The notes beneath the pieces were generated by a model. It ran no database searches and was not told where the DNA came from. It saw only the letters and a program-made list of their open reading frames with translations. Positions 1 to 64,000 of a stretch of DNA of 64,000 nt are shown here, piece after piece. Origin of the DNA: Lepidurus packardi (lineage: Eukaryota > Arthropoda > Branchiopoda > Notostraca > Triopsidae). The stretch lies in NCBI GenBank assembly GCA_023053545.1, contig JAKZAN010000135.1, positions 25,010-89,009 of the forward strand, read 5' to 3'. The position numbers were made by a program, and so were the translations under genes. Positions within the stretch are counted from its first letter, which is position 1; each line of letters starts with the position of its first letter.

Positions 1-1051
1 AGTCTTCATGGATTTGTTGGAAGGCAAGGTTGGGGATTTGAGAAGCCGGTATGAAGTCCCTTCGTTCTCCCTGTCATTCTATATCCTAATTTTGGGCAAA
101 TTGTCTGTGGAGCCAACATTGCTGGTGGGATTGGATGCACAATCCGAGCTTAGGACCCGGAACATTATGGTGTTTTTCTTAGTTCTTCTGCGGAAAGGAC
201 TACGTTGCACAATAAGGGCTTGGGCTTCGCAAAGCTGATGGTGCTGCAGCACGGCCTAGCTAATTTTGGTGCAGTACTCCATGGCTGTTCTCAGTTCCTG
301 CTCCTTAGGCGTAATAGGGTCAATCGAGGTATAGAAGGTTTTGGGGATAAACCTGTCTCCTTTACTCCTTTTCTTCATGCTGCGTCTGAGGAAAACATTT
401 TCTTCTTCGCGGCCTACTTTGAGATGAGGAGGGTTGTTCTGCAGGTCGATCTGTTCGGATTACTCTTGACAGTCGGCATTGTAGCTCTTGAAGAGGGCGA
501 TAATCAGGAGTTTCTTTAGAGCCGATGACTAAAATCGATAAACAGACAGAGTAAATTGTATAGTTTAACTACAGTGTCCAAAATCTAATCGCGACGAGCA
601 AAATGAGTAGTAAGACAAGTCTTGAATAATGCTGCAACAACGAGGATAGGAAGGGGGGTACTCGGAAAGGGGTGAGTCTGTAGGGCTCAAGGTCGATTTA
701 TTTTTTAGATGAGAGGAATCCGCGAGACTAAATCCTGGCAATGGACCTGAGGTTGTGTGGTTCTTCAGGTATCTCTTTAATAGTGGAGCAGCGTTCGGGA
801 GGAGCTTCTGTCGGAACAGCCAACATGGGAGGGGCAGGAGGGTATTGAGAGACTTTTGGAATGGCTTTAGAGGAAGACTGGTATTTTGTAATAAGTGTTT
901 TATGGAATGGAGAGAAATGGACTTTCTATGGAGGCAACAAAATATATGTATGTATAGGATAAATAGTTCTTCGTTCATTCTATATATTCTGTTCTTCTTC
1001 GGCCAATTTAATCAGGGTCAAAAGAGGAGATCCGATATCTAGGCACTTCAT
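1..1051 (-). CDS. Membrane protein of unknown function, 3' end cut by window edge
   Basis: The start ATG is at 1051 (MKCLDIGSPLLTLIK) and the frame runs off the left edge, so the C-terminus is missing. TAA/TAG are read as Glu throughout. A strongly hydrophobic stretch (LVLLLILLVAI, then TIYSVCLSILVI) near residues 150-185 gives one or two membrane segments. It is preceded by a Pro/Glu-rich region and followed by a basic tail containing RRRTKK. The frame changes after position 464. A 25-nt GT..AG intron at 439-463 joins the two coding frames at a codon boundary; without it the upstream frame stops at a TGA at 320-322. I do not recognise the family. The N-terminal half has biased composition, but codons and length support a real gene. 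The start is the first ATG of the open frame. Confidence 0.68.
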
Positions 1052-1289
1052 TATATACAGGGGGACTACTCACACTGCTTATAATTTATGCTGCACATTA
1101 TTCGTACTTCCATACCTAATTCTTTCTTCCCATCCCTCTAGTCCCCCTCCTTCAAAGTTATATCCTCAACTCCTTCCTCTCTCTTCCTATCTACCACTTT
1201 TAATCACCGACATCTCCATAATTTCCACAATACTTCAAGAAAAAGACAGAGACGCACCACAGAGAGTCATGCACTCCAACCCCCAACCT

Positions 1290-3845
1290 TCACATTCTTC
1301 TAGATTCCAACACCTCCAGAGCACCCCTAATGCTCATGCGCCCACTTTATTATGCCTCCAATAGACCTCGAAGCACTCTTTCGTACTACTTCGCCACTCT
1401 CCTCGATTCAAGTAATTCACGTTTCTTCTGCAGCTGTTTATCGATGTAAGTGCTCGGATCATTCTTTTCGATCAGAGGTACCTCTCCTAATATCATCTCG
1501 AACCCAATCATTCCCAGACACCAAGCATCAGCCATGGCACCATGTCTACTCAAATTACGCACTTATGGTGACATATACTATTTGGGGATACTCTAGGTTG
1601 CCCAAAGCTATGCTAGGTCTATCGCCATCCCGAGGTCTTCGATTTTGCAATGGAGACCACCTCCCACAACAGCAATATTCTGTGGGCGTAGGTCCCGAAG
1701 AACAATCTTTTTAGTATGTAGATGCTCGACTGCTTAAAGCAACTCTCTCAACAATATGATCGCAAAATTAGGGTCGATGCAACCATGAGTTTGTAGCAAC
1801 TTATGAAGAGTCGTTTAATGAGGCTCCAGAATTAGGTAGTACCTTTCGGAGTCTGAGGAAAAAACGTACGGGGTGCTGATATTGGGGTGCTAGATCGAAG
1901 AGTGTATTTGAACCTCTCTACGCAGCTGATGGAGGCTGGCTGGGTCCAGCTACGACTTCGTATACTCCTTCACGCAGAATAGGGTATTTGACACTGTGTC
2001 TTGGGCTAAATATTTTTTCACAGACTTCTTGCCTTCATACACCCTACCTCTTCGCACCTTCGTCCAGAACAGTTAACTCTGTCCTTCTCTGTCTTGGTTT
2101 CTCGAAGTGCTTTTCTTAGCTTCCAGATGGCGTTCGGGCTTCTCAAACTCCTCGGGTAGTTATTGGCCTTACTATGTTTTCGAACGAAATTCGGTATTGT
2201 TATAGGTCCGATGACTGAAGAACCCGTTGGACGAAGGTTTATTTGACTCGCCCATAGCAAAAATGTCGTGGTTCTAAATGTAAGTTTGCCTTGCCGTAGA
2301 GTTTGGGTATTTTAGGAAATCTGTTCCATTATGTATTGATGTCTGGTTCTGGTTGGTATTTGACAGACCGGCACTCTGGAGATCGAAACAACTGCCTTCA
2401 TCGTAGGAGTCCTCGAGCTTCTTGCGGTGGTGGCGGAGCGAAGATAGATAAGGCATTGTGCCACAGTTTTTGTAAAGCACCACCGATTGTTCAGATTCTG
2501 GGGCCTGCGAGTTCTAGTCATTGTGCGATACGATTGTTGTAACTTCACGCAGATTTCTTATGACTCCTTGAAATCTGGCGGGGCTATGATACGAGCTCTG
2601 AAGACTTGTTGTCTCAAATTGACTCTCGTGCATTAAGGTTGTCGGGCTGTTTTAGGCAGAATTCGGTGGAGACGGTTAGAGGTCTATCCTCTATATTACA
2701 GACTCTCTAGATTTAGGATACTGGGAATGCATAGGGGAAGCCTCAGGGCTTGAGGCGAACGACAAAAGCGCTTGGTTGTTATTGAAGGTGTTGAATGTCA
2801 GGGGTTCGCAGCGGATCAAAGGGTACTAACTATACGATGGTGAGAATATTGGGTGACGAATAGGTAGTCGCCCTGGCTCTCTTAAAAGAGGGTCGAAGAA
2901 ATTGCGTGTCGAAGGCAGCGACAGACTGGGTTGTTTGGTTGGTTGGATTTGTGCCTAATTGATAGAGTTTTCCATCGTCTTGGTAGATGTTGTGTCTCGT
3001 AGAAGTTTATTCGGGGTGCCAGCGTGCGTAACCGCCGAAACCGTAGCTGGCGTGTGCTAACCGTCAATCAACAAAATGGGGCTGTCCTCATCTAAGCATG
3101 AGCGAAGATGTCTTTTCTGCTGATCCTGGAGGGAGGTAAAGGGTGAGAGTTGTTCGTTTGAAGATCGAGAAAGAGAGGCAGCGTTAGTGAAACTGATATG
3201 AATTGGTCTCGGATTTTGTTGGCTGGCGATTATTTTATTTTTGATGGACTGCCCTGTAGGGAGTCCTGCTGGTCTGTACAATTTGAAGTTTTCCACGGGT
3301 GCTTGAGTATGTCTGGGCAGCAAACTCTGTTTTGGGAAGCAGATTGTAGTTTCGGAACAAGGTGTCCGTAGAGATGGAGACTGCGGTTGCGAAAACGTTT
3401 AGAACTGACTATTCTTGCTAGAGTAGACGATTGGCAGCGTTTGCGTCTTCCCTAAAGGTGCATAATTCCTAGGCAGAAACACATCAGTCTTTTCTTGAAG
3501 TTCGCTTTCCATCTTCGTTGTAGTTGTATTGATAGTGACGAAACTTGGGGCTCTGAGGGTCATAGATTTTTTATTAGTCGGGACTTCATGCTTGGTTTGG
3601 TAGCTGAATGACTTTTAGGATGAATAAGACTGGAGGGTTTGGTTGCAGCCGCTCGTGCGGATCCGTTAGTCACTAGACATGTTCTTGGTAATCTGTATTT
3701 TCTGCTGATTTCTATGATGAGAGAGCTTTGTAGCTTTGGAGAAACGCCTGGGCGGAGCTTAGGTAGCAGGCAGGCAGTTGTGGCATTGGGAAAGGGCGGC
3801 TTAGGTGGGCGAAGACACTTTTTTGGCAGAGGTTACTGTTAACAT
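1290..3845 (-). CDS. Protein kinase with long N-terminal extension
   Basis: The ORF is 851 aa with no intron. Residues 1-590 are Ser/Thr/Pro/Asn-rich and probably disordered. The kinase domain is about 595-845. Visible landmarks are a poor glycine loop (RRGRVYEG), the VAIK lysine in FCVKEY (K626), an alpha-C helix with a conserved Glu (LHQLRREVQIH), a catalytic loop read as VLRDLRPQN (D718), DLG in place of DFG (D737), an APE-like SPE, and the closing motif near GRMSIRGALEVL. The HRD His is Leu and the catalytic-loop Lys is Arg. The mandatory Lys and both Asp remain, so activity is possible but not assured. Several Glu in the domain, including those in WATESIPKEY, come from TAG or TAA. The start is the first ATG after an in-frame TGA. 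The kinase group is not resolved. Confidence 0.87.
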
Positions 3846-4116
3846 CTTTTATTCTAAGAAAGCAGCGACAACTTTATTCGTAAAAGACAGAGGACAATTC
3901 ACTATTTTTTGTGTTCAGTTGAATACCTCCCTGAAACCAACTCCGCCTCTCTTTCTCAATTCTGACGCTCAGCATCGTGAAACCAGCCCAGTCGATCCTA
4001 TATCAAATCGGTAACACCGTTATCCTTTGCGATTCAAAATGGCACTAAGTCACAAGTTTTCTCCACGAATACAAAAATTAATTCATCACTAAAAAGATGC
4101 CGTTCCTGTTCTCCTA

Positions 4117-9343: not shown

Positions 9344-10545
9344 ATGCTAGCTATTTTAGCAATGTCCCTCATCGCCCTCTGCCTATTCAAAGTTGTCCGC
9401 TGGCTGATCGAACCTTACCTTGTCTGGAAGAAAACCTATGCGGCCCGTCAACAGCAGTACCAACATTTTGAGCCTGCTATAATATATTAACCCTCTCTTC
9501 GTTGCTCCCTGATTTTCTTCCCCACCATCATAACTGTATAATATCTTGATTCTGCCTACCAGAAATATTAAGGTTCTTAATGGCGAGGGCAAAACCATGA
9601 CCATGGAATAGTACCGTCAAGCCTCCAGACCTGGTCAAGATTTGGCTCTCAGTCTTGTGATTCCTGCCTACAACGAATAGAACAGATTATCTGTCATGCT
9701 TGACGATGCTATTGCAGTAATACCTTTTCCAAAAATGGTTCACGATAAATTCAACGGCCCTATAGTATCTCAGCAAAGCCAAAATTTCATACTAAGTCAT
9801 CGTCGTGAATGATGGCTCCAAAGACAAAACGTATAATCCACACTCCAATCTAATACCCCGCCTTCAGATCTCAAGTGGCACTTGACTACGCCCATAAAAA
9901 ACACCTACCCTTGGTGGTTGTCGAATACCCCACCAATAGAGGTAAAGGAGGGGCGATCCGAGCAGGCATGCAACTAGCCAGGGGCAGACTCCATCTCATG
10001 GTAGATGCTGATGGGGCGACCGAGTTCGCAGAGCTCTCAAAGGTTAAGAGTCTGCTTGAAAAACATCTAGATGAAAAGAAAAATCCTTTAGTGCTAGTGG
10101 CAGGATCCCGACACCATCTGACAGCAGACGAAGAGGTGAACCTGAAAAGAAAATGGTACCGAAAGCTGTTCGCCTTCCTCCTACATGTTATTCTAACTTA
10201 TGGATGTGGAATTAGAATGAGGGTACAACTCTTTGCCATTCGAACTGCGTTGCATAATGTTTTTAGGATACTCAATGTGGTTTTAAGCTGATGACCAGAG
10301 AAACTTCGAAAATTCTGTTCTAAACAATGCATGTCGAGAGGTGGTCTTTCGATATTGAGTTGTTCGTGATGGCCAACCATTTCGGCATCAGTTGCTACGA
10401 AGTTGCAGTCAATTGGCAAGACGTTGAAGGCTCCAAATTGAACCTTATCGAGGCTTCTCTGTCAATGTTCCGGGATATCGTGTTAGTGCGCACTTTGTAT
10501 CTGTTAGGACTGTGGAAGTACACTGATAAATCCATAGTGACTTGA
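9344..10545 (+). CDS. ALG5: Dolichyl-phosphate beta-glucosyltransferase (ALG5)
   Basis: Five exons give 344 aa. Introns are at 9536-9572, 9717-9765, 9831-9867 and 10223-10266. The enzyme transfers glucose from UDP-glucose to dolichyl phosphate at the ER membrane and supplies Dol-P-Glc for N-glycan precursor assembly. An N-terminal membrane anchor (MLAILAMSLIALCLF) is followed by the GT2 core: LVIPAYNEENRL, SYEVIVVNDGSKDKT, NRGKGGAIRAGM, the DADGAT metal-binding site, GSRHH, RDTQCGFKLMTRE, HVERWSFDIELF and VAVNWQDVEGSKL. TAG gives the second Glu of YNEE and TAA gives the Glu of SYEVIV, both conserved in ALG5. Length and motif order match human ALG5 (324 aa). The start choice among nearby upstream in-frame codons rests on the anchor. 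Confidence 0.95.
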
Positions 10546-25905: not shown

Positions 25906-28900
25906 TCAGGCATGGTAATGATACGGGTTCGAGTACTGCTTCAACTGTCTCCACAGTGCCACACTCTCTTATTCGTCGTCCAGCAGCTAGGCTTTCCCCC
26001 GCGAGTCTAGCATCAATTTCGCCCACCCTTTCACTTTCTATTTCTCCTTGAAGTTTAAAATGAATTCCACCTCGGACTTATAAGCTTTGAGATTCTTGGG
26101 TTCTGAAAGGATAAGAGCCTGTAGGAGTACAAACTTATTCCTCTCATTTTGACCTGCTAATTCTTCAATAGTTTTCAGGTCAAACTTCCTATAGTAGAAA
26201 AGTCCCGAAATTGTCATCATGGCTTCGCGATGCAGTTGAGGGTTTTCCAAAAGACTAAGCAATAGATTGATAACCTTCTTGTAGTTATCGGCAGTCTGGA
26301 ACATGAAGTTGTAGGGGTACTTATGAACACCCAAGTAGTGAGAGGTTTCTGCAACTGGCCTCAAAAGAGGAACTATTGCCCCCAAAACCCCCTCGAATTC
26401 TGCAGGTGAATATATCTGGCTAAGAATGGACTGGAGAGACGCCGTGAAGAGAGTCACTTCTGTCTTAACTTCCTCTCTATTGCTGATTATCCACTAAATA
26501 GCTATTTTCAAGAACCTGATGAGGATGAGGTTGTTGTAATGAGTCTTCCTGAGTCCTGCGTATGCTTTTAGAGAGTCGAATAGGATGTTGGCTCCAACTT
26601 TTCTATCAGTGATGAAGTCGCTCTTGAGGAGCTTTTAGATAAGGTTTTGAAGCTTATTCTAGAACTCGAACTCTCGAACACAGACATAGTATTTGCCAAG
26701 TTCCTCGGTGAGTCTGCCGTCTGCTTTTAATTTTTCGATATTGAGCACACCACATTCTTGGGCAGTCTCCGTATCAATAACATGCTGCTCAGGGAATCTG
26801 ATTAAAGCTTTAAGAAGTTTGATAAATGTGGGGTTCTAAAGGTTGACCTAGGCAAGAGCATTGTTGCTGCTGCAGGCTTCAGCTACCCTCAAGAAAAGTT
26901 TGAAGAGACCAGGATAATAATTGGAGTTGATGATCGAGAGCAACTCGACTGCGCGGAAGTAAGTCGACTGAGTAGGTTGGTAGGATGATAAAAACTTCTC
27001 CAAGAACGAATCGCGGTATGCCCCCACGAGCAACCCTCTGCCCCTAATCAACTTTTCGAAGACAAGGAAGAAATGTCCTGCTGAATTCTCGATCACTTTC
27101 CTGATGACCTGGATGATGAACTATTCCAGCTCCTTTTCACCATCTGGGAGAGTGCTTCGGAGCTCACTGTACTTGATAAATAGAGCATCGAAGTAATTCA
27201 TGACAACAATCTGGCTATCCATCATCTGTAGTTTGTTGAGGGCTTCTAGTACGAACGATCTGGTAGCCCTGAAGAAACGCATACCTGAGCCCAAGTCAGA
27301 ATTAAATATCTACTTAAAGTATCTCTCCCCAACGAATCGCTCATAGATGGTATACTCATGATTGGAAAGAACTACTCTGTCATTGAAAAGCAAGAAAATA
27401 CTATTGAATAAGTCTGTGAGCTCAGTTATCTCCTTGAAGCTGATTCTTTTGGAAGCTATAAGGTCTTCTTCAGAACTGATCTGATCAGTCTGGTAGGTTT
27501 TCATCAAGCCGAGACACTTCTCAGGTTCATCGAAGAATGGGAAATAGCTTTGCATGCTGACTCGTTCCAGTTTTGTACACTCTTTGTAAGGTCTATAGTC
27601 CCTCAGCAATCTTCTCTTCTCGATGATAAGTTTCTGGTGCTCAGATCGGATGTAGCCTGTTTCCAAAAAGTCCCAAAGGTCCTTTTCGACGTAATCCGTC
27701 AGGCATGTAAGCTTCTATCTCTTGTCTATGGCTTTGTGATGAGTATACATCAGTCCAGCAACCACATACATCCCGAATCTTCTGCAGATGTAGTGCTAAG
27801 AAAAAATAAGAGGCTCGAAGATCTTGTAAAAATCGGAGTACTGCAAAGGCTCGTGATGGTTTTTGGCGCACAAGCAGAGCACCAGTCCCCACACTAGCTG
27901 CTGTTTGGGATCCTTATTCTTTTTACATTCTTCCCTGACGATCTCCTGCAACTTCGATATGTCTCCCCGGTCATCACAGATCTTGATGATCAGGTTTTTA
28001 AGAGCCGGCAAATAAGCTTGTCGAATACCTCTCTCTGGCGAGTCGACATGCTTTACACAGGCTCGGAACAGCTCTAGAAGCTCAACAAAAGGGATCTAGA
28101 TTTTTGTCTTATTGACAAAAGCCCGTACGACATTGGCTACTTTACTATGGAATTTCTTGACCTTTTCGATAACTATTGTGAATGGGGCTTCGTAATTAAT
28201 GAGCTGCAGGAGCAGGGGAGTCAGGGAAGCCTGGAACCTACGGCCGGATAAAAATCCTTCGCCTTCATCGGGATGCATAATAAACATGAGGAGATGTTTT
28301 TCGAGTATCTTATGTTTTTCCTAATTCTATTGGAAAACCATCGAGTGGTTTAGTTCCGAGAGCTTGCACTCGACTTCGTAAATCGACATGATGTAGTCGA
28401 TGAAGCCTTCAGGCTCACCAGATTTCTGCACTTTGTGGACTTCCTTGATATGTCCCTTTTGCGAATGGAAATAGTATTCTTCGTGATCGATGATATTCAG
28501 GACGTTGTTAGAAAGGTTTTCTAGCAGCCGATGGTCCTGGCAATACTTCGTGAAGGCCAGTCCGAACATCTTGTCCAGAAGTACAATGAACTTATCACGC
28601 ATTCCCGTGATCTCCTCGTAACTATCAAAATGAAGCTCCTTGAGTTTTGGCTGTCGCGAGACCACACGCTTGTGGAAAGGGATCTCTCTCAGAATGGTCT
28701 CCAGGATTTCGAGCTTCCAAAGACACCTCTTTCGGAAAACAAAATCAATGGGATAGGTTTCGAAATTTATGTTGCAGATGATTGTGATGGGGTCTGAAAC
28801 TGGAGGCACGCCTTCTGATCTGGCACTTACTTCAGCTAACAGCTAGTCGTAGTAGTGGTTCCAGAGGGATGTCAGCTACTTTATGGTCTCGCGATTTCTC

Positions 28901-31124
28901 TGCTCTTCATAGTTGATTAGCTGGATCTCAATCTTCCCCTACCCGTACAGGTACTCCAGGCTCGAAGGCAATGGCTCGTATCTACAGCTGGTCTCAAGTC
29001 GTCGATTACAGAATCGGTGAATTGCAGTGTGTATGCTTCCTACAGCATATTGAGTGTCGACTTCTCCGATAGCTTGCAAATATTGTTTGAACTGTTCGAA
29101 GGTAGCTGAAGCACACACAAGGACGAGCTCGTTGATACGACGTTCTTGCTGCTCTCCTTTGTAACTAGCCAGGTCCAAAGTAATGAAATCCTAGATGTCA
29201 GTAGCTGGGATTTCCGTATGATACAGAAAACTGAGGATGTGGGAACTGTGCCATTCGAGGTATTTCTCACAAGCATGATTGACGCAACGCTTTAAGAAGT
29301 GTTTGTGACTGTTGAACGCGATGGATAGGAATGGGTTGTCGAGGAAGCTATAGCTAACTTGCTCTTTCGTCTAAGTTTCCTTTATGAGCCTCTCAAAAGC
29401 CGAGAACACGCACTCCGAATACCTCTCATAGAAGGCATCGTGAACGATACCAAAACGGGTTGCAAATTTTTGTTTGATAATTTCATCAACGGCAAGGTAG
29501 TCTTTTTCGTCTAGAACAGGAAGCTTAGACGTAATGTAATAGACCACAGACCAGCCATGCTTAATATAACGAATTTTAAGGATTCCTTAAAGAATCCTGA
29601 GAATATTCTGCAGTAATGTCTCTCGCTTCCCATAGGCAATTAGGAATTGTACGACTTTCTTAGTGTTCTTCATCAGAATAGGGACGTTGAGTTCAGGGAC
29701 AAGCACGCCTTTCAGGATGTAAGGAATCGCTTCTTCAGCCAGTTCAGGGAACAATGTGAAGGTTACTTTCAGGATCCTCGACGCTTATTTCAGTTGCATA
29801 AAGAAGAAGTCGTGCAGTCTGGCTTTAAGTTGGTTCCTCAGTTCGTCCAAGACTTCTTGCGGAAGTTCATCCTCCAATAAATGCTGCAACCTCTTGATCT
29901 TAGCCTCCATGTCTTTCTGGCTGGGCTTTTCGGCTTCTCCTTCATCACCTTACTCTTATTCTGACTCATCATCATCTTCAGAAGCTCCTATAACGATGAA
30001 TTGGCGGACAAGTCCGATCTGCTCTTCTTTCTCCTACTCCTTTTCGTCGTCTGAGTCTTCGCCTTTATCCTTTTCGTCTTCATCAAGTTCCTCCTACTTC
30101 TCGGGCTGTTGAAGCTTAGCGAGTTTCTTCTTATTTTTGAGTTCCGTCTGCCTTCTTTTAGAGAGATAGGAAAGAAAGACAGCGAGTAGCTTTGTTGGAT
30201 TTTTGATTTAGTGGAGTGCCACTAGAGCATTTTTAAAGATCTCAAAAAACAATCTGATGAGCTCGACTGAACGTGTGTTGTTCTTGCCAATGATGTACGC
30301 CAGATGCTATCCAATAATTCTTGTACTAAGAATCTCTCCTGTGCCTTTCTCTCTATTCTGGATCAGGATGATTTTGCGGACTAGCGAGTCATTCAGAGAT
30401 GGCAACAGTTCCGCAACGGCAAACCCAGGTACCCTCTTCTTGATCTTGATAATCCATCTCCAAAGATACATGTCCCGCGTGCCTTCGACTTCCATGAGTT
30501 CATAGACTTCGCGCAGGAATTTGGTGACTACCGAGAGGTCTGACTCTCGAGTGATATTCACAAACTGCTCCAGGTACATCCAGACCATATCAGACCCGAA
30601 GTCGTAGCGCCCTTTGAAGTGATGAAGCACGTCCAGGGCATTGTCTTTGTTATAATATCTACGTAGGATGGCGCCGAAGGAGTAGAAGCCATTGAGTTTG
30701 CTGGCCTCTACTTTGGAGTCCTCGAGTTGCGCGATAATTTGGCGCCAATCGAGGGTGAAGTCCTCGAGCTTAACATTGGCAGCTTTCAGAATTTTCAGGG
30801 AGTACTTATCCCGTATGTGAATATTTCTCAGATCATTTAGGTCACGTTATAAAAAATCTGGCAGCCAAAATTACAATGAAGCAGAACTTGTTTACATTTG
30901 AAGATCTAGGTTTTCAGGGGCTTCGGCATCGACCCCAGGGCTTTGCGAGAAGTGATGTAGTTGTGCAGTCTCTCCAGCTTCACATTGGTATCGTAGTCGG
31001 TCGCGGAGGGAGCTTCGCGGAGGGATTGGAATGTGGTGGAGATGAGGGTGTCGAGGTTGTCTTTGATGGGTTTTTTTGCATCTTTGAAAGCATGCCTGTG
31101 GTTGGGAATATACTATCTCTTCAT
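25906..31124 (-). CDS. Very large alpha-helical protein of unknown function
   Basis: 1726 aa with one 38-nt intron at 30858-30895. The remaining 4.95 kb is a single open frame. The protein is mostly amphipathic helices in HEAT/ARM-like style (VTKFLREVYELMEVEG, KVINLLLSLLENPQLHRE, SLTPLLLQLINYEAPFT). It contains an acidic low-complexity insert near residues 330-400 (KEEELDEDEKDKGEDSDDEK, SEEEEGDEGEAEK). There is no signal peptide, membrane helix or catalytic motif that I recognise. The C-terminus ends NPYHYHA. The frame and codon use are uniform along the gene, so it is a real protein. A scaffold or transport-type role is inference from helical-repeat texture only. The N-terminal exon (MKREYIPNHRHAFKDAKK) depends on the single intron. 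Confidence 0.82.
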
Positions 31125-31934
31125 AAGAGTTGGATGTAGGTGGGTCTGAAAGTACAGGAAGAGGTGTGGAGTGTGGGAGTTTAAAGAGTATGATTGATAT
31201 TTAAGAAAATGTGTATAAACAGGCAGGTGGGTAGATATGGGAGAATCCAGAATAATAGACATGCATATAAATTAAGATGTGCTGCTGCTACGATTGTAAT
31301 TTCTCAAAAACTCCCCAAATATTAAAAGAGCCAAAGGAGCACAAACTCCAGGCCGCACTTTTTACACTTCCAATCATTAAGCAATATCACGCCCCCTCCT
31401 CAGCATATATACCATCAGTCCACGCCCTCTCACGTCCCATCTCTATCACGATCTCCTCCCCAGTCCACTTCTGCACACACTTCCCACTCGCCAGCACCCA
31501 TCTTTCACCAACCATCACACTCTTCCTGAACTTCTACACTGTACGTGGCCATAATCAGAAATGATTGGAATTCGATAATGCAAATGACAGTTTCAAGAAG
31601 GACATCCATATGTTAGGGGCGATATTCTGGAGCGATAAAAAGTCATTAGAATAACTTAAGGATGAGAAGTTATGTCTGCATTTCTGGAAACTTGGGTATC
31701 AGAATGTAAAGTTGGAGTGAGTATTTAGAGAAGGTGGGGAAAAGTGATAAGGAGGAGTTCTGAATGGATGAGGGAAATAGCGAGAAGCAGAGACGAGGAT
31801 ATGAGTTTATTTTATTGATAGCTGATTGAGAGTGTGTACCTGCCTGGCCGCAGTTCTTTAGTAGAGTCTTAAGTTTATTTTAAACCGAAGTTAAAAAGAC
31901 CAACATACAACACAACCGCAACCAAAAAATTATC
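31125..31934. other. 810-nt region with conflicting coding signals on both strands
   Basis: No single gene model is satisfactory here. On the plus strand 31564-31720 reads FDNANDSFKKDIHMLGAIFW, then SLEELKDEKLCLHFWKLGYQ, and stops at TGA 31718-31720. It lies in the same frame as an upstream open stretch (31277-31563) from which it is separated by one TGA. On the minus strand 31390-31550 reads VGERWVLASGKCVQKWTGEE, and 31310-31370 reads NDWKCKKCGLEF. One of these is probably a short spliced gene. Positions 31721-31934 hold the Myb promoter. Confidence 0.4.
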
Positions 31935-33487
31935 ATGGGAGAGAGGAAGGTTTGGAGCGAAAAAGTAAACCATCACCATAGCAACCATCATACTCTCTTG
32001 TCAATCTCCAGGAAGACCATGCACTCACTGATATCATACTTAATAAAAAGGTCACCAAGTGGAGCGCCATTTCCAAAATCATGGACAAAGACTACGGCAT
32101 ACCCGGAAGGACCGGCAAGCAGTGTAGATAGAGGTAACACCCGCTCCAAACTATTCCTCAGGTGGCACAACCAACTCGACTCCAATATCAACAAGGCAGA
32201 CTGGACCGAACAGGAGGAAGAGATCCTTTTCCGCCAGCACGATGTCTATGGCAACAGATGGGCCAAAATTGCCACTGATCTCCCGGGAAGGTAAAATCTT
32301 CTGCGATTCGTCCAATAACCCCCTTTTCTATCCTACATATCAACTCCTTGTCTAGAACTGATAATGCCATCAAAAATCATTTTTACTCATCACTGAGAAA
32401 ATCAGTGCGCCGCCTCAACCGATATGTCGCAGAAACAAAGGCCAAGGGCTAAATGAAGGAGATCAAGCCCATTATGCTTTCTAAAGTGATCAGTGTGGCT
32501 GAGGATAAGTTTGAAAAGAGGCTGGGTGTAACTTAGGAACTGATCTAGGATTGTGTCGACATCAAGCACAGACTTATCCTGTACGCCAAAGACTTCATGC
32601 TGACCGCCGAGAAGGAAGAGGAAATACGCAGACTGGTGACTGACATCATGAACTTCAATAAAAACTATAAACGCAACCGCAACAAAACTATAGACTCCGC
32701 TCATGAGGAAGAGGAGGACTCCCACTCCCGATAGGTCTCAGAAGAAGTAGATCCTTCAGACTCCTCCAAGGATAAAAAAAAGAAAATGAAGCAGTCTCTC
32801 AAAAGCTCTCGTAAATCTAATCAAGCAGCAATAGCAACCTCTGTTCCTCTAAATCTAACTGTGAGCACCCTGCCCATCAGAGGATCTCATCTTAACGAGC
32901 CAAGAATCCCTGCGTAGAATGAAAGTCCGACTCTCAAGAAATCCATTATACTCACTGCTCCTTCAGTACGCTAATAGGATAAACCCAAACAGTCACAAAC
33001 ACCCATAAATCAACCAAATCTTACTCCTCTAGTACAACACAATAATGGAGAAACTGCATTCAGAAGACACCCTTCTTACAATAGAAGTACAGTTTCAGGT
33101 GATTTCCAGGATGAGATGTACAGGAAATTCGCAACGCAGAGCCAGGAGAGTCTGTGTCTGGGGGCTCAGTTTCTAGTACGTGGGAGGAGCGAGTCCGAGT
33201 TCGACCCTATCTACCCTTATGGCTCAAATCTAATCCAAACCCCTTCTCAGGGAAACTTTGATGCGGTTTTTTTAGCAGGTTTTTCTCAGGATTTCGGATC
33301 GAAGACTATTCCCGAACACCTGCTGGAACCCCTGGATGGGAAGGATGTTGGTAACGGCGTAGGGTTCCAGAGAACAGGGAGCTTCAATCCGATTCAACAA
33401 GCATTAAACCAGAACAGCCTTGCGAGCCAAGGATCGAATCAAAATCTGTTGGGCAACGGCATCCATTACACTAATTCGCTTAAATGA
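31935..33487 (+). CDS. R2R3-type Myb transcription factor
   Basis: Four exons give 470 aa. Introns are at 31965-32011 (47 nt), 32134-32161 (28) and 32291-32355 (65). Residues 1-115 form two Myb repeats. R2 is GERKVWSEKEDHALTDIIL, KWSAISKIM, then GKQCRERWHNQLD. R3 is ADWTEQEEEILFRQHDVYG, RWAKIATDLPGRTDNAIKNH, then FYSSLRK. The Trp spacing and the CRERW and GRTDNAIKNHF signatures are canonical. The Glu of CRERW is encoded by TAG, one of the best proofs of the code. The introns interrupt the Myb domain, and a standard annotation would miss it. The remaining 350 residues are disordered and Ser/Gln/Asn-rich. It is a nuclear DNA-binding regulator with targets unknown. Confidence 0.95.
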
Positions 33488-38158: not shown

Positions 38159-41100
38159 TCAAGATTCCGCTTTCCGCATAATTAGTTTTGCCGTGGTGGA
38201 TAGGTAGCTGCTCACGATATGCGCATGCTGAGTCCTTATCACAATAGTTTTGAAGTCTTCTTTGGACTTTTCCTTGCACACACAAAGCATCAGAGTCTCC
38301 TCATCCACAGACCACTTCAATATCCTTCTGATCGGTATCTCCTCGTGTATGTTCATTCGATCTGCCAACAAAATCTTTTTCGGCCTCAGATAAACCTTGA
38401 CTTGTTGCTCGGTGGGGATCGCCATAGCCATGCACAGCTTTGAGGACTCACAACTCTTAATGAAGCTGAATTTCAGGTAGGATGGGTTTGTAATGCCCTG
38501 ACTCACCGTCTTTTAACGTTTTATTGACATAGCGACCAAATCACGATCTTTGAATTGCTAATGAGCCCATCCAGGAACCAAAGCCTGCGGATCTATGTCA
38601 GGACGCTAGCGATTTAGAAGTTTGAGGCAAGCAACAGCATCGACCGTATGATCTAAGTCTAACCGAATTCTGCCAATAAAGAGGTCGAAGTAGCATTGGG
38701 CATAGCATAACTAGATAGATTCAGCGTCCGAAGCCTCAATCTCGAATGCGTACTTCAGTTTCATCATCATGATGAAGAGAGGAGGTTTGATCTTGCCTTC
38801 TTCGTATTTCTCCTTTGCCCGTTCCCAGTATGTCAGTAGGTCCCATACGTTTCTGCTATCGTCAATGGGACATTACTGCAGCTCCTCGTTTTCGAAGTTC
38901 ATGATTTCGAAGAAACCGAAGAGATCTTTGCTAAGTCTGCGACTATTGATGCCTACTTCGGCTAGCACGCTCTCCTTGATGTCATCGAAAGTCTGGTAGG
39001 ATTAGACCCTTACAATGATCGAATTACCAACCGAAAAAAACACAGGAAGCGAGATTTGTCTCTTACACATCAAGGCCATGAGCTGGTACTGGGCAGGTAG
39101 GTATAACACGTTATTGGCGCTATCGCCTTACTCTTCCTGGTAGACTTTAAGGATACGCGGGAACAGGTACCTGAGATACTCTTTATCTTTGGAGGCTTTC
39201 TTATCAGTGAGTTTGCTATAGAAGAGATTGAGAGCCGCAAGAATGTAGGGTTTTTCAGGTCTAAAAATGTGTAAAAAGATGGTGACCATCTGATAGACCC
39301 TGATGATCCAAAGTTCTTCCTTGGCATTTTGCTGCTTCAGGAGTTGGATGAATATCTCGTTTTTGAGAGCCTGGGAACAACTTTGCAGGATGTCGATGAG
39401 TTTCTCAATTACTCTGAACACCTTCTCGATGACCTCTTCATTGGATAGCTCCAGCAAATGCTTGAAAGCAGTGATAGCTTTTGCCTCCTCCTCGGCGGAT
39501 AGAAGTGTGAGGGATTTTGTGATGGGCGAGTCCTTTGCAACTAGTGTTTCTGAGGATGATTTCTTTCTGCCAAAAACAGTCTTCCTAGTCCTTAAGACGG
39601 AGTCGAAGTAGTCGATATAGTTTGCATTCACGATCGTATTCAAAAGAGTCTGGTCCATTGATTCCACTTCGAAGTTACAGTCTCTGCTCGGAGGTGAGTA
39701 AAACTCTTCCTCATTATTTACTTCGCTTTGGTACTCTTCGTTGATGATCGATTTGAGCTTGGCCAGGCCTGGGGAACCCACAAACTTAGGCACCTTCAAT
39801 TAGCCTCGCAGTGCTACCGTAGGGTTGCCCACGGGATCAATAATAACCGATTGTTAGTTTAGGAAGCTATCATTAAAGTTCATCTCTTTTTTTGTCTCGG
39901 GTTTTGATGCAGCGGGTTTAGCCTGAGGTGTTTGCTGTGCAGGCATGACGGAGTCGTAAGAGACTGTTTCGTCTAGGAGTGCCGTTTGATCCATCATGTG
40001 CTCGTTGCTGAAAAACTTGATCTTCATGAAGAACAGGAATTTCTGATATTTCTGGAGCCGAAGAGTGACTGACTTGGACCAAAGCTCCTGCAAGCGATCA
40101 TTGCGAAGTTAGGTTTTATGCTTTTCATTGTCGTTCTTCTTCCTCTTCATCTCTTCCTCTTCCTGCTGCTTTTTTGCTACGTCTTGCTGTTTCTTTGTTT
40201 CCTCCTGCTGCTTTTTGGTTTCCTCTTGCTGTTTCTTAGCCTGCTTCTCGCGTTCCTCCTTCAGCTGTTTGGCCTTGAGATGCTGGGTCGCCAACTTCGT
40301 CATCTACTGATAGCGTTTGAAGACATCCGTCCAGTCCCTCTTACTCTTCTTGTTGACCAGCTGCTTGAATTTTCTAATCTTTACCACTAGCTCTCTGAGT
40401 CTCTTGTTTATCTTAATCCTGAAAAAAGTCTTTCGCACCATCTTCTGGATCTTATTAGCACATTAATGCTGCTTTTTGAATCTTGACAACATTTCCTGAT
40501 TCAGCTTCAACTCGTACTCATCGCTCAGATATACTCGCTCCCTTCCCATCAGGAACTGCGACGAGGGCAAGTCACCAAATAGCCCTTTTAAAATGGCCAT
40601 CACTTTAGCCTGTTCGGACAGTCCCTCGTGGGAAGTTTTCAATAGCGGAAGATAGACTTAGTTGAACTGGCTGAATGATTTTCTGAAAGGGAAAGTGCTT
40701 TTTCTGATTTTGATTGTCTCAAGCACACCGAGATATCTGATCTGCTGGATAGTATAAGTTTCGTTTAAATACCCTGCCCTTTTTTCTTCGTTGGGCTTGA
40801 TACATCTAATAAAGTGTACTTCGGACCTTTCGAGCTCACCGATTAGTTCTTTTACCTGAGAGTCGAATTTGCCTACTAGACTCTTAGCGTTGCTCGGTGG
40901 GGCAGGGGGCATCGGGAATACTTTATTGAGAATCGCTTCGATTCCCGCTGTCACCTTGTCACTGTTCTTCATCCGAAAACCATCCACAGTATATGTCACT
41001 GAACTCTGGGTGTGTTTAATCGTGAAAAAAAGCTTGTTGGCATTGTTTCGGTCAATCTCAAGGGCATCATGCTTCATCTTCTTGATTTATCCGACAATAT

Positions 41101-42670
41101 TTTCGTCGGTAGCTTGGGCGAGAGTAGTTTTCTCATCAATGAACGAGAAGATACTGGGTCCGTTACGCTTTTAGATCAGCTCGATGATGGCTCTATTGTC
41201 TGGAGGAGAAATTCCGCCGACTCTATCTTCGAGTCCATCTTTGCGAATCTCCTCCAGCTCAGTCTCGAACACATAGCGGGTATACAGCTTCTGTAGTTTC
41301 TCGTTGGTGAAGTTGATACAAAGTTGCTAGAAGCTGTTCACCTGGAACTTTTCGAATCCAAAGATATCCAGAAGTCCGATGCTAGTTGTAATGTTCTGAG
41401 GGGGAGACAACACCAAATTCATCTTTTCGATGATATAATCGAACATGCGACTATAAAGTGCTTTGGCCACAGTGTTTCGGTTTGAGACACACTTCACCAG
41501 ATCGAAGTTAGACCTGATGCCCTTAATCCTCTCTTCGCTGAGGAGGATGGAGTCCATATCGACTCCGAAGGACTTACCGAGACGAGCCACGATATCTTTG
41601 TTGGAATATGTACAAGGCTTGTTCACATCTTCTTTATGCTCTGTATCTTTATACTCGACGTTTCCGAGCATCAAGATACTTGCTACCGTCTTCCAAATGG
41701 TATCGATTTCATCCTTGAATCCAATCTGCTAGAAAGCCTTATTGACCTGTTCGAAGTCATCTTTATCGTTAATGCCTTCGGCTTCTTGGCATCCGCTCAT
41801 TTCAAGAAGTTTGTATTTCTCGCCCTGTGGCAGCCCATACTTAGGTCCGTTACCTGACTTGATCAGGCAATAGAAGACGTGGAAGTTTCTTTCATTAGGT
41901 GCAACAGAAGTTACTCTTGATTTTTACAGCAGGTAACTTTGGATCTTGGCGCCTCTGATATGCTGAGTAGAGTCGATGAAAAGCCGCACGTATTTACCAA
42001 ATCGACTGGAATTGCTGTTCCTGACTGTCTTGCTGTTTCCGAAGGCCTCGAGAATAGGGTTACAATCAACGATTTTGTCCTCAATAGCTGCCTTAGGTTC
42101 TGATGCATGGTGCTCATGGCTGAGTGAAGCCAAAAAAGTCATACAGTATTTTGCGTTCTCCGTCTTGCCAGCGCCACTTTCTCCACTAATGACTATAGCC
42201 TGGTTTTGCCGAGCAAGCTTCAGTCTATTGTAGGCAGCTCCGGAGATGAGATAAACGTGGGGGGAAAGTTTTTCGAGGACTTCACCTTTTTTGACTTTGG
42301 CGCCCAGATCGTGGAGGAGCTGGTGATTGAAGAGTTTGTTGATTTGCTTGTAGGGGTTCATGACGATAAGAGTGGGACCTATTTTTGTAAAGATGTCATC
42401 CTGCGTATATCTCTTCCGGAGATTGGACAGAATTTCAGGCTCATTGAGAACATCCATACTACACATGTCGTCGTAGATCTTGTCACTGAGATTACGTTCG
42501 AAAATATTCTTGAAAGGCACCTGGGCATAGGTGTCTGTGCTTGACTGGCAGTCAGCAGAGTTATCGAGTCGGGCCTTGATGACTCCCGAGAGGAAGGTGC
42601 CGGGGAGCTGAGGGGGCTCAAACCAGACAGGCTTATTGGGGATGATCCAGTCGGCCTGAGACTTTTGCAT
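38159..42670 (-). CDS. MyTH4-FERM myosin
   Basis: A single frame of 1503 aa. The motor domain (about 60-760) has the P-loop GESGAGKTENAKYC, switch I NSNSSRFGKYV, the relay-side IQSYLLEKSRV, switch II DIFGFEKF, and actin-interface motifs (HFIRCIKPNE). The neck has few or weak IQ sites (CANKIQKMVRKTFFR). A highly charged segment (about 800-840) is rich in KKQQEETKKQQEE. Next is a MyTH4 domain (NTIVNANYIDYFDSVL; LQSCSQALKNEIFIQLLKQQ), then a FERM-like region to the end (VNDIKESVLAEVG-type start; ILKWSVDEETLMLCVCKE). This matches ciliate MyTH4-FERM myosins related to Tetrahymena Myo1. The Glu of the invariant LLEKSRV is TAA. It is an actin motor probably linking membrane or phagosome and cytoskeleton. 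Confidence 0.96.
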
Positions 42671-42966
42671 GTGTATGTTTGGGAAGATAGACGAGAGTGT
42701 GTGGTGAGATAAAATCCTACTGTGGGCTATTATAGAGTATGTTCGGAGGCTGTTGTATTAAGTGCAATCCCAGCAAACTCTGTGTAATACAGAAGAGTAT
42801 TTATGATCATGTAGGTACATAAGGAATTATGATTCTTGTTGTCCCACAGTACTTGGAATGGCATGCCTGACGCTTATAATTTCGTGTCGGAAACCCTTCG
42901 TGCATCTTCCTCCCATAATTCCCTATAAAGTCTTCCATTCTCAATCTGCTTCAACAAAAATCAATA

Positions 42967-45774: not shown

Positions 45775-45930
45775 GTAGTAAAATGTGTGGATGGCGTATT
45801 AAATATAAAAATGATATTAGTGTGGATAAAATGACGGGAATAAAATAAAGAACTTGGCTAACGACATCATCGAACAACAGAACTATATTTTTAGTTTGAA
45901 ACAACCCAAATAGGTTATTTTTTAAGTCTA

Positions 45931-46143
45931 AAATTTATGTAGCCAGTCCCTCAAATAAACGCTATCCACCTCGTCTATCTCTGTGCTACTAACACTATTC
46001 ATACCCATACACCTAAAGCTCCTTTCCCTACCAAATATCACTATCCTAGCCATGCCATCTTTTCTTCTCCAGTCTAATCCCCATCCCTATTTCTATGACA
46101 CTCCAGCATCGGCTCTTTTCTAATACTCGCTGAATCCACACAT
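45931..46143 (-). CDS. Possible upstream exon or short gene
   Basis: From ATG 46143 the frame reads MCGFSEYEKRADAGVSEKEG, then RIVIFGRERSFRCMG, then SSTEIDEVDSVYLRDWLHKF. Glu at TAG positions and amino-acid balance look coding. After about 71 codons the sequence becomes AT-rich (45775-45930), although no TGA occurs before the coiled-coil gene that begins at 45774 in the same frame. It may be a 5' exon of that gene, joined by an intron I cannot place, or a short separate gene. Confidence 0.35.
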
Positions 46144-46232
46144 TATATGAATGATACCATAATTTTCCAAGTTGCCAACCACCACAATACAAACACCCAT
46201 ATCCCTAAAACAACCTTCCCTTTTCTACTCAA

Positions 46233-47918: not shown

Positions 47919-48179
47919 TTCCGGTGGCTCAGTAATTTATCATAATGAATAGCAAATCAAAATAGAAAGGCAGAGCGAGTGACCACGACTATTTAATGCC
48001 AGGGTCATCCTAGAACCGTGAGAAACAAGGAGCCGTCCACAGGCAGACCTCATTATCCGCTTGTGCATATTTCAATCTTGTCGCCCTTTCCGAAAATAAA
48101 CGCAATCCCTACTTTGACTCTATAAATTTAAATTCACTTTCCCACTCATCAACGGTCAAACCGACCACTACTAAACATC

Positions 48180-50378
48180 ATGAAGAAATCCCTCATGTAC
48201 CAGAAGCCACCCTCTCAAAGACCTCCCACCCCTACCCAGTCCAAGCCCCCCAAGCCTAGGCCTGAGTTCTCTACTGATTTCACCGACAATAGCAAATACA
48301 AACTCACGCAATAGTAACTCAACCAAAAGAAAGCATCGCTCGAGTCCAAGAACCGAGAAGTGGCTCGTCAACAACTTGCGGAAAGACGCAAGAAACTTGA
48401 AATGGGTATTATAGATGATGACACCAAAAAAGTCTACGAAGAGGCTCTAAAATCAAAAGGAGTGGATCTGAATCCTTCTCTGCGAAGGAACCTGAGCCAG
48501 ATGATCGGATATGAGAAGGAAATGCGTGAGTCAGCCATTGCGAGATCGTCGAGCAGATAAAGACCTGGCAATACCAGTAGGGATAAGTCGAGTCAAAATA
48601 ATAACCAGAGCTCCAGTAACTTCTACATCGACTCGGGAAGAAACTCGGTGGAGAAGGAACTGCAGCACACGCGATAGTTCATCAAGAAGGTTGAGAGGGC
48701 CAGCAAGGTCAAGGATATCAATCGGGCAGTCAATATTCTTGAGTCGTAGTCCACATACATGCCCTATGCGCAGGCCTCGGGAAGAAATGACAAGTTCAGA
48801 GCTAGCAATGAACAGGCAAAAGAGTCTCTCACTCCCTTATAGGGACTCAGAGATACCCTGAACTTCATGGAACAGAAACTTTTCAAGAAAAAACCTTCTC
48901 AAATGGAAGAGACTTCCAAAACAGAAGAGAATTCTCCATTTTTAGAAAGCGATGATTTTAAGACTCAGCAGTCCAATGAAGACAATAATGCAGTCTCCTT
49001 CAGTCGCGATGTATTTACTTGTATTGCTAGCCCTTGCCAGTAACAGCAGTTTTAGTACAACTGCTATCATCCTGCATACGCATCTCGCACTAATACACAG
49101 CCTCGCGAGGACTCTGAGCCTCCTCTGGGGGTACTCAGGCTCCTTGAATACAAACACTAAACACGGCTCCCCAAAGTCCCAGACTCAAATCCTCCATCCA
49201 CTCTAACTCCAGAGATGACTGAGAGGGACTAATCGCCTTCAGTCAGCAGAAACCTATTTATAGGGAAATCTAATATAGATTAACATAGCAAGGGTGCAAG
49301 CACAAATGTTGAAGGATCGGACTGGCTGGAGACGATCCAACGGATGAATGATCTGCTGGAGAAAAAAGAGAGGGAGTTGAATATAGGAAACAAATAGCGG
49401 AGGGACGAGTAGCTTTCGCAGATGCGTAGTCCTGTCACTAAGCAATCCCAACCACTCCAGTAACTACTCCAGACTAAAACTCTCTATTCTGACTAAAACT
49501 ATGATATTAGTAATCTGCCCACACGAAACCAGAACAATAGCAAAACAACACCAACTCCCATGCTCCGCTAGCAAGTTCCACCCAGAACAGCAACTTAAAA
49601 CGACCAACTTACCCCCGCTTCTTCCAGAAGAAATTTTGAGGAAGAAATTGATTTCAGTCTCACCATCAATAACGATGATGACCAAGACTCCAGCCTCAGG
49701 ATTGACACAGACAACTTCTTCTTCCAGCACAACCAGCTCAAAACACACGCTAAGCCTTCCCTGTTGGCCCAAACCTACATTGACAACACCACTTCTATTA
49801 AAAAGCAAAATACTGTTGTTGGGCTCTCTCATGCAACTGAAACAAGCCCTCATCGACTTCCTGTTGCGCTAAAAGGGCTTGTACAGTAATCTGACCCTGA
49901 TGATGAGGAATCTAGCGTCCCTTTGTCCAATCTACATTTGAAGAAGGCGTTTAGTTTCGGTAAGCAGCCTCACGATCATGTCTTCGAGAAAGGTAATGCC
50001 CCAGGCCAAAACGTAGAAGTAGATAGACACTATGAATACATGAAGATTGCGGAGTTACAAAAATAGACAGTTAAAACCACAACGTCTTAGAGCAATGACT
50101 CAGTGGGCAAACATTTGGGACAAAATCTTATACCAGCCGTAGTGGCTGTGAACTACAACAGACAGATTGTTGGGAGCAAAACCAATCTGAAACAAAAAAT
50201 GGGCGAGTAGTAGGCAGGCAAGAATGGCAACTCAGAGATCATGAAGATAAAGAAACTACTAGAAGACACGAAGAGAGGACTGGAGAGTATAGAAATCCCT
50301 GATTTTCAGGTGCCGTTAGTGGCAGGCAAAAGTGAGTCAGGCAGATAGTGCATCAGTCTGAAAAGAATTATTCGCTGA
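48180..50378 (+). CDS. Disordered basic protein, 732 aa
   Basis: A single frame with about 25 in-frame TAA/TAG codons, all read as Glu. The N-terminal 130 residues are basic and helical (MKKSLMYQKPPSQRPPT, LESKNREVARQQLAERRKKL, VYEEALKSKGVDLNPSLRR). The rest is Ser/Asn/Gln/Pro-rich and disordered, with short helical patches (EGSDWLETIQRMNDLLEKKE, SEIMKIKKLLEDTKRGLESI). There is no membrane helix or recognised domain. Such proteins are often microtubule- or basal-body-associated in ciliates, but nothing here proves it. The start follows an AT-rich leader, and the stop TGA is at 50376-50378. Confidence 0.84.
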
Positions 50379-58520: not shown

Positions 58521-58698
58521 GAGAGGTGTTCTATTTAGTTTTTATTTATGAGTCAGGGATAATATCGAGGGACAAAGTATTGAAAATTTTAGAGTGTACA
58601 GGAGGGCTAAACTTATATCGATGACTTTTAATAAGAAAAACCTAGAATTGGTGATACAGAATATCTTTCAACCCAGAGACGCACGTTGTCTATTCACT

Positions 58699-61373: not shown

Positions 61374-63275
61374 ATGAAACAATTGAAAAACTATTTTCAA
61401 AAGGTCGACGACATCAAAAACCAGCTCAGAAATCTCAGCGGCCCGTAAGGCTCTCCCGACCCTAAGTCCAAGCCATCCTCTTTCGCTCCCCAGAAACAAC
61501 TTAAGACTAGAGATAATCAAATACCTAAAAATGCCTCCAACCTACGCAGTAAATAACGACTACTCGTTCACCCAGCCCCTCACAATCTCGCCTTCCCTTC
61601 GCAGGAGCCTGCTGCAGCCAGGACCAATAAGAGTACTAGCCTCCAGAAAAACAGGTCTGAGTCTTCCAACTCTTCCCGCTACCACTCGAACATCCATAAC
61701 AATAGTCGTCATGATAGTCGTGGGAACAGTGAGTCCAAAGGTTTCCTCAAAAACAATCGGTCGACCAGTTCGTCTTCTCACTACACATCAGTTGACTATG
61801 ACAATCTGAGGATGAGCTACCTGAAGAGCTTAAACCGGAAAAACCCTGATAGAAAGGATCAGAACCACAGTCACTACCGATCACAGCAGGACAGTCTGAG
61901 GGGATCTGCGGAAGTGGCGCGACCAGAGCGTGAACAGATCCGTAAACTGATTGAGTGCATCAAAAATCGATAAAACGCCCCCAACACTGCCAACACACAA
62001 ATCAATCCAACGAGGATGGAAGATCTTCATCCCAAAATCGCTCAAAACTGGGCTAAAAATCCAGATCAGTCACACTCTAAAATTATCCCATCTAATAAAG
62101 CCCCTAGTTCTAACAGTCGGCCTGCCAGCAACAAAAAGGAAGATGAGGTTAGACCCAGTACTGTCTCTCTGCAGAAATCGGCAGCTGCTAAAAAGAACGC
62201 CACTTCAAAAAATACATCGCAGCAGATGCTCTACCAGAGTTTTCAAATAGAGCTAACTGAAAAAAAGGGTTCAACAAATATCTCGAATGCAGTTACCCTG
62301 AACTATTCCTACCGGACTAAGCAAGGGTACTTGTCTACGAACCCGAAGAAAGTCAACCAAGACAGTCTGCTTATCAAAACCAATATGCTGCAGAAAAACA
62401 TGCATCTCTTCGCAGTTGCCGATGGTCATGGCATGTACGGGCACCAAGTCTCCCAACTCGTGGCAAAGAATCTCGCGAAATGCATGTAGGCATATTTAAG
62501 AAACACAAGCCCCGAATAATCATTCCAGTTGGCATTCAGTCGGCTGCAGCAAATGATCTGCGAATCGACCAACATCAACTCGACTTGCAGCGGATCCACC
62601 TTAGTGAGTGTCCTGATTAAGAACGATGAAGTACTCTGTGCCAATGCAGGAGACTCTCGAGCCATATTGGCGCGCCAAAGTAATACCATCTTCATGCTGA
62701 TCCTTTTCTGACTTATACGTCTGATGATTGTAGGTTAAAAGAAGAAGTGGGAAATAGTTGAACTTTCCAATGACCATAAACCTTCAGTGCCTAAGGAGAG
62801 AGAGCGAATCCTAAAAATGGGTGGGAGGATTGATACCTTTCGCGATTAAAACGGCAATCCTCTCGGACCCGAACGGGTCTGGCTTCCGAGCCAAAGTAAC
62901 CAAATATCCTTACATCCATTTATTGTTCCAATAATATGTGGTCTAGGGCTTCAAGGATTGGCCATGTCAAGGTCTATGGGAGATAACATCTCTAAGAACA
63001 TTGGGGTCATCAGCGACCCTGAACTTTTGAAGGTGCGATTGACCGAAAACGACCGGTTCATGGTGATTGCTTCGGATGGGGTGTGGTAGTTTATTAGCAA
63101 CGAAGAAGTGGTGGATCTGTTGGTGCCGTACTACTGCGAAGGCAGAATGGAATAAGGATGCCAAGCTTTGCTCAAGCTCGCATACGAACGATGGACCGTA
63201 TAGGACGACAGCGTAGTCGACGATATTACATTCATTGTGATTTTCCTAAATTGCCCGAACCAATAAAGAGTCTGA
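61374..63275 (+). CDS. PP2C-type protein phosphatase
   Basis: Three exons with introns at 62680-62733 (54 nt) and 62896-62946 (51 nt) give 598 aa. Residues 1-320 are a disordered, Ser/Asn/Lys-rich extension. The PP2C domain follows: KVNQDSLLIKT, FAVADGHGMYGH, SGSTLVSVLIKNDEVLCANA, GDSRAILARQ, HKPSVPKERERI, GLAMSRSMGD, FMVIASDGVWEFISNEEVVD and DSVVDDITFIVIFLN. The metal-binding Asp residues in DGHG, SDGVWEF and DDIT are present. PP2C enzymes are Mg/Mn-dependent Ser/Thr phosphatases. The Glu of GVWEF is TAG. The gene is the last well-supported one before the telomere. Confidence 0.96.
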
Positions 63276-63298
63276 GGATTGGCGAGGGGTAAGAGAGG

Positions 63299-63775
63299 AT
63301 GGTGAAGCACAGAGACCAGGAAGCAGAGTTGCGATTAATTAGTCTAATCTATAAAAGTCAAGAGGGTGGTCTGATGGGATGCGAAACAATTTATGAAAGT
63401 ATACACCCTGTCTCTTTTTATGTCTTTCCAGCAAACCCCGTCAAAACAAAACCTATATTTATATATCACGATGGAGCTCGCGCTTTCAGCCTCTGGGGCT
63501 CTGATAGTGAGGTCTTGTTATCCTTGTCGCAGTTTCCCGACGATAGAGATAGAGATAAAGATAAAGATAGTGTTCCACATGACGGAGGGTATCGCCGGAC
63601 ATACAATTTTGAGAGACCGTTAGATTTCAAAAAAATTATATACCTATATTTATGTATTTATGGACTAGCTCCCTCGCAAGGGGTCCTACCTTATTTCTTT
63701 ATCCTTTTTTCATCTTGCATTAGGAAGTATAAATATATACACAGTATTTCATTAAAACCCTAGACTCTCATCTGA
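63299..63775 (+). CDS. Possible subtelomeric ORF, 158 aa
   Basis: An open frame from ATG 63299 to TGA 63773-63775, also free of TAA/TAG until near its end. The N-terminus (MVKHRDQEAELRLISLIY) is plausible. The middle holds a Asp/Arg/Lys run (DDRDRDKDKD) from a 6-nt simple repeat, and the end is Tyr/Ile/Leu-rich. It starts 24 nt after the PP2C stop on the same strand and ends 64 nt before the telomere. No family is recognised; it may be non-coding subtelomeric sequence that is open by chance. Confidence 0.33.
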
Positions 63776-63839
63776 ATCATCTTAAAACAAAAATGCAAGC
63801 TTTATGTCAGTGGACTTCTCGCGTTAACCTCTCAAGTTC

Positions 63840-64000
63840 TTGGGGTTGGGGTTGGGGTTGGGGTTGGGGTTGGGGTTGGGGTTGGGGTTGGGGTTGGGGT
63901 TGGGGTTGGGGTTGGGGTTGGGGTTGGGGTTGGGGTTGGGGTTGGGGTTGGGGTTGGGGTTGGGGTTGGGGTTGGGGTTGGGGTTGGGGTTGGGGTTGGG
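63840..64000 (+). repeat. Telomere, (TTGGGG)n
   Basis: About 27 perfect tandem TTGGGG units run to the last base of the window, G-rich strand towards the 3' end, as expected for a chromosome end. TTGGGG is the telomere repeat of Tetrahymena-type oligohymenophorean ciliates, which include the peritrichs. No interspersed variant units are seen. Confidence 0.99.

Follow-up and report, generated by a model that had tools for sequence, protein, structure and literature searches.

Which genetic code is used by a 64,000-nucleotide stretch of the Lepidurus packardi assembly GCA_023053545.1, and from which organism does the stretch come? This stretch (hereafter the window) covers positions 25,010-89,009 of contig JAKZAN010000135.1 (C124; 89,009 bases), and an original prediction made from its letters alone held that UAA and UAG both encode glutamate and that only UGA stops. 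A kinase column tally, Pfam scores and a histone H4 gene bore this out. We consider it about 93 % probable that the window forms the telomeric end of a ciliate macronuclear chromosome of 89 kb, most likely that of a peritrich, in which UAA and UAG (together UAR, or TAR in DNA) are glutamate and UGA is stop, as in NCBI table 30.

Residue assigned to UAA and UAG

The tally, which had been proposed beforehand, was run for TAA and TAG separately on 62 of 127 kinase domains (mostly the higher-scoring ones) from contigs C73 and above, which are ciliate contigs of the same assembly. Sense codons of the other kinase paralogues served as the column reference, and a column was considered conserved when at least 50 % of its sense codons agreed. 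The 62 domains contain 105 TAA, 108 TAG and 4 TGA. In conserved columns, TAA faces Glu at 30 of 34 sites (1 Gln and 3 other; Lys is opposite one of the 34) and TAG at 20 of 26 (2 Gln and 4 other). The controls gave Glu/Gln/other counts of 273/6/31 for GAA+GAG, 20/40/34 for CAA+CAG (CAR) and 4/1/261 for AAA+AAG (AAR). When Glu and not-Glu columns were compared by Fisher tests, both codons differed from CAR (TAA, p = 6 × 10−12; TAG, p = 3 × 10−7) and from AAR (p = 1 × 10−32 and 5 × 10−22, respectively). The contrast with CAR is independent of the likelihood model used below. At the alpha-C Glu column all 49 sense codons are Glu, and 10 TAA and 2 TAG stand there as well.

Likelihoods over the usable kinase sites were Glu +84.3, Gln +20.5 and Lys −43.1 for TAA (94 sites), and Glu +71.7, Gln +21.2 and Lys −3.2 for TAG (100 sites). 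When a closely similar model was bootstrapped, Glu was best in 2000 of 2000 runs for TAA and in 1998 of 2000 for TAG. A control that masked whole codons (51 of 61 sense codons decoded) was replaced by masking random subsets, under which Glu, Lys, Asp, Asn, Ser, Tyr and Trp were called correctly 200 times out of 200 and Cys 61 times out of 200. The tally favours Glu for both codons, with Gln and Lys clearly worse. Alignments to solved structures were dropped as a basis for the tally because the best matches were near-identical chains.

For the Pfam comparison, TAA and TAG were both read as Glu, Gln or Lys in 11 proteins and the bits in the best-scoring family were compared. Glu scored highest in 10 of the 11, and Gln lay below Glu in every one. 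The Glu/Gln/Lys values were 555.7/547.3/548.3 for myosin, 126.3/123.0/122.2 for the window kinase (Pkinase), 61.5/60.8/59.8 for the spliced Myb (PF00249) and 36.5/32.7/32.2 for the spliced ALG5-like fragment (PF00535). Six kinases were added (247.7/239.6/237.9, 236.8/231.2/231.7, 224.8/223.8/222.7, 239.5/233.8/232.5, 227.5/223.9/221.8 and 251.1/245.0/244.1); these were chosen for many TAA/TAG or for TAR at the alpha-C Glu and are thus not a random sample. With TAA alone read as Lys, myosin fell from 555.7 to 551.6 bits and the window kinase from 126.3 to 122.3; with TAA alone changed in the ALG5-like fragment, Gln gave 34.0 and Lys 33.6 bits compared with 36.5 for Glu.

Five window codons had been cited as falling at family-invariant Glu positions. 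All five are present within 6 bases of the places given for them (the myosin TAA, put at about 41930, lies at 41924-41926), and a sixth, stronger site that had not been listed, the TAG of myosin NSFEQLCIN, was found. These codons and their genes are:

1293..2111, minus strand: protein kinase domain with several TAA/TAG (Pkinase profile)
9678..9680, plus strand: TAG for the second Glu in YNEE, ALG5-like gene (spliced fragment, PF00535)
9717..9765, plus strand: 49-nt GT..AG intron lying between the TAG and the TAA of the ALG5-like gene (seen in the sequence)
9793..9795, plus strand: TAA for the Glu in SYEVIVVNDGS, ALG5-like gene (spliced fragment, PF00535)
32129..32131, plus strand: TAG for the Glu in CRERW, Myb gene (spliced Myb, PF00249)
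32134..32161, plus strand: 28-nt GT..AG intron interrupting the CRERW motif of Myb (seen in the sequence)
38162..42937, minus strand: myosin heavy chain frame, 1592 codons, 14 TAA and 7 TAG (Pfam Myosin_head, 543.4 bits)
41327..41329, minus strand: TAG for the Glu in NSFEQLCIN, myosin (Glu in each of the two distinct solved myosins)
41924..41926, minus strand: TAA for the Glu in YLLEKSRV, myosin (Glu in each of the two distinct solved myosins, 1mmg and 7dhw)
63087..63089, plus strand: TAG in PP2C DGVWEF (exon scores do not separate the residues)

When both introns were removed, Pfam matched Myb and Glycos_transf_2, and the ALG5-like splice restored the Glycos_transf_2 frame. The description as family-invariant Glu stands for myosin YLLEKSRV and agrees with Myb CRERW and with ALG5 YNEE and YEVIV, but it is too strong for PP2C (Glu 79.4, Gln 79.1 and Lys 80.7 bits). 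Among the six TAR codons of the myosin head that were compared with the two solved myosins, two face Glu in both and one faces Asp/Glu. The two introns, of 28 and 49 nt, are very short and lie inside or adjoining conserved motifs.

When the window was read with TGA as the only stop, 20 frames (overlaps included) of at least 400 codons were observed. The mean in 20 base-shuffled windows was 2.8 such frames, with none longer than 720 codons, and under the standard code the longest frame in the window itself has 395 codons. Nine long window frames, which lack TGA by construction, contain 130 TAA and 136 TAG in 10,550 codons. The longest of all is:

25909..31383, minus strand: TGA-free frame of 1825-1826 codons, of which 11 are TAA and 22 are TAG (unmatched in Pfam at 1e-5)

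Three other long TAR-containing frames (21444-25517, 42970-46278 and 47949-50375; 1358, 1103 and 809 codons, compared with 1825 for the longest) likewise gave no Pfam match at 1e-5.

UGA as the stop codon

As the frames were defined by TGA, the independent evidence for the stop consists of histone H4, a Pelota-like frame and the coding signal. A complete ciliate histone H4 on contig C87 closes with GFGG-TGA, and a frame read as Pelota on ciliate contig C219 also closes with TGA. The coding signal was examined in 75 long frames, 59 of which have their last TAA or TAG at least 10 codons before the TGA. In these 59 the mean codon score was 0.09 before the last TAR and 0.07 after it, and beyond the TGA it was −0.19. 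Scores below the midpoint were observed in 12 of 59 frames before the last TAR, in 15 of 59 after it and in 62 of 75 after the TGA. Each of the 4 TGA in the kinase set falls in an insert column to which 1-3 sequences contribute, and these TGA probably lie in introns. UGA behaves as the stop. The H4, the Pelota-like frame and the coding signal support the claim that all full genes end in TGA, but they do not prove it for every gene. In Blastocrithidia (table 31) UAA and UAG are glutamate as they are here, but they also serve as stops and UGA is Trp, whereas here UGA stops.

The H4 on C87 (L102, C87:44560-44960) has 110 residues, seven more than an H4 on contig C2 (103), and two further codons past its stop a second in-frame TGA follows. 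Another GFGG match, on C73, proved not to be H4.

Chromosome, organism and alternative codes

The window ends in telomere repeats:

63840..64000, plus strand: TTGGGG telomere repeat array (chromosome end, repeats read in the window)

CCCCAA repeats open the opposite end of C124 (from C124:1). Together the two arrays make C124 a short chromosome of full length whose C4A2/G4T2 caps, one on either end, are telomeres of the ciliate type, as in macronuclear chromosomes of Ciliophora. The Tetrahymena telomere has the same G4T2 repeat. Throughout the window the G+C is 0.42-0.45.

Glutamate for UAA, glutamate for UAG and the UGA stop were each found as in table 30, the peritrich nuclear code, and no difference from it was observed. 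The code itself is already known. In the available parts of PMC10553269 and PMC11687900, from which, as for the other papers cited here, we draw, UAR = Glu is attributed to peritrichs, and PMC4967479 predicts codes for two peritrichs. On this ground the attribution to a peritrich, made in the original prediction, is the best reading of the UAR = Glu code; we infer the organism from the code and regard a peritrich as most likely. Comparisons of H4 and WD40 sequences with solved chains failed to place the ciliate.

Several observations weigh against this reading as a whole. The peritrich status rests on the code and not on 18S rRNA. Under random-subset masking, CAR sites were called Gln 180 times and Glu 20 times out of 200, and masking of whole codons calls both CAA and CAG Glu. 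In the solved relatives, three of the six myosin-head TAR codons stand opposite nothing but Lys or Asp (Asp/Asp, Lys/Lys, and Lys in the only relative reaching that far). Changing TAG alone in the window kinase is neutral (Gln 126.6 and Lys 126.2 against Glu 126.3 bits), kinase L084 scores Gln 109.2, Lys 108.8 and Glu 108.7 in a second family (PF07714), and the PP2C exon slightly prefers Lys. No suppressor tRNA (UUA or CUA anticodon) was found on the ciliate contigs among the matches listed, and no ciliate eRF1 was found, since PF03463 and PF03464 matched only C219 among the ciliate contigs and that frame was read as Pelota instead.

UAA and UAG would be expected to be read by tRNA-Glu species whose anticodons are UUA and CUA, and an eRF1 restricted to UGA would release the chain. 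The tRNA searches used anticodon-loop plus T-arm patterns, a D-arm plus anticodon pattern, tRNA-Glu similarity and ARAGORN on the places examined, and miss intron-bearing genes. The listed matches of a first broad pattern stop short of the ciliate contigs, and narrower patterns were then applied. The sole tRNA-Glu on a ciliate contig (C206) has the ordinary CUC anticodon. The other pattern matches examined on ciliate contigs were rejected as suppressors, being Lys (L041, L045), Arg (C80, L015) or not tRNA (L049-L055, L057, L058); a match on C173 is the same string as that on C80 and one on C79 resembles a satellite on contig C4. Since RF00005 scored only 63 of 5192 tRNA candidates, introns were disallowed and the ciliate set, without eRF1, is apparently incomplete, the absent suppressor tRNA is not taken as a refutation. 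We read the missing tRNA and eRF1 as gaps in the contigs or the searches, not as evidence against the code.

Two other codes known from ciliates share with the window a UGA stop and sense meanings for UAA and UAG. In table 6 (Tetrahymena, Oxytricha) both codons are Gln instead of Glu. A ciliate with G4T2 telomeres would suit that code, and Gln is the second-best residue for TAA and TAG by likelihood. However, the kinase tally refutes it: TAR faces Glu at 50 of 60 conserved sites and Gln at 3, whereas CAR faces Glu at 20 and Gln at 40 of 94 (p values above), and in the best Pfam family, with both codons changed, Gln lies below Glu in all 11 proteins. Table 6 is thus very improbable here. In the code of Oligohymenophorea sp. 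PL0344, an uncultured oligohymenophorean in which it is real according to the available parts of PMC10553269, UAG is Glu as in the window but UAA is Lys. For UAA the likelihood is +84.3 for Glu against −43.1 for Lys, conserved sites are Glu at 30 of 34 and Lys at 1, and reading TAA alone as Lys lowers the myosin, window kinase and ALG5-like scores. The tally refutes this code as well, and we give it next to no weight.

It is also unlikely that UAA and UAG, while meaning glutamate, end a minority of genes by context. Context-dependent stops are reported in Condylostoma and Parduczia (available parts of PMC4967479), a 2020 paper on three peritrichs carries "less biased stop codon usage" in its title (as given in a reference list), and the last 20 codons show a slight excess of TAR (26.7 vs 21.5 per 1000). 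The coding signal is nevertheless nearly unchanged past the last TAR (0.07 vs 0.09) and is −0.19 past TGA, and the sole complete ciliate H4 closes with TGA. A similarly small chance attaches to a non-peritrich ciliate that arrived independently at this code (UAR = Glu, UGA stop) and was a hidden companion of an animal. The peritrich assignment draws on the code and not on 18S or multigene phylogeny, which leaves room for such a lineage. Against it, the available parts of PMC10553269 attribute ciliate UAR = Glu to Peritrichia with a single origin. In addition, the G+C of the window and the lengths of the ciliate contigs examined (51-143 kb) are compatible with the seven peritrich assemblies in the available parts of PMC12411067 (G+C between 25 and 46 mol%, 83-199 kb for the largest contigs, N50 2-57 kb).

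The mixed assembly

The assembly totals 108.6 Mb over 344 contigs and is mixed, containing a probable animal, bacteria-like contigs and the ciliate, with the animal part dominating. C2 and C5 are 12-14 Mb long, and C1, C3, C4 and C6 show pattern matches beyond 10 Mb. At least one TAA or TAG lies within 120 of the 127 kinase matches from contigs C73 and above, and of the 84 such contigs in the kinase listing, 81 have a kinase match with an in-frame TAA or TAG. On C1-C6, five of nine kinase matches contain stop codons (possibly introns) and four do not.

A histone H4-end pattern was found at 54 places on C2, C3, C4, C9, C25 and C41, followed by TAG at 49, TGA at 4 and TGG at 1; the matches include places about 5 kb apart (histone repeats). 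One H4 examined on C2 is animal-type and closes with GFGG-TAG. A Pelota-like gene on C5 is divided among several frames in an intron-like pattern, and a frame near it resembles, in our reading, the RNase H region of a LINE. Judged by the sequence of the C2 H4 and the LINE-like frame, the host is a probable animal. The ciliate was probably a cobiont (an epibiont or commensal) sequenced along with this animal, which uses ordinary stops.

This mixture, invisible from the window alone, matters for annotation. The assembly requires two codes, and annotation with a single one makes either the ciliate or the animal part wrong; the ciliate chromosomes lie unlabelled within an animal-dominated assembly. 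At least one macronuclear chromosome of a probable peritrich is present in it from telomere to telomere, compared with the N50 of 2-57 kb in PMC12411067.

No RNA family reached gathering scores in the window. Elsewhere, C42 (395 kb) and C55 (205 kb) carry bacterial-looking tRNAs, Arg TCT and Glu TTC (L056, L060), and are probably co-sequenced bacteria. A tandem satellite of TTTAAACCGGTCTAAACC-like units at C4:405125-452063 dominated the first tRNA pattern search.

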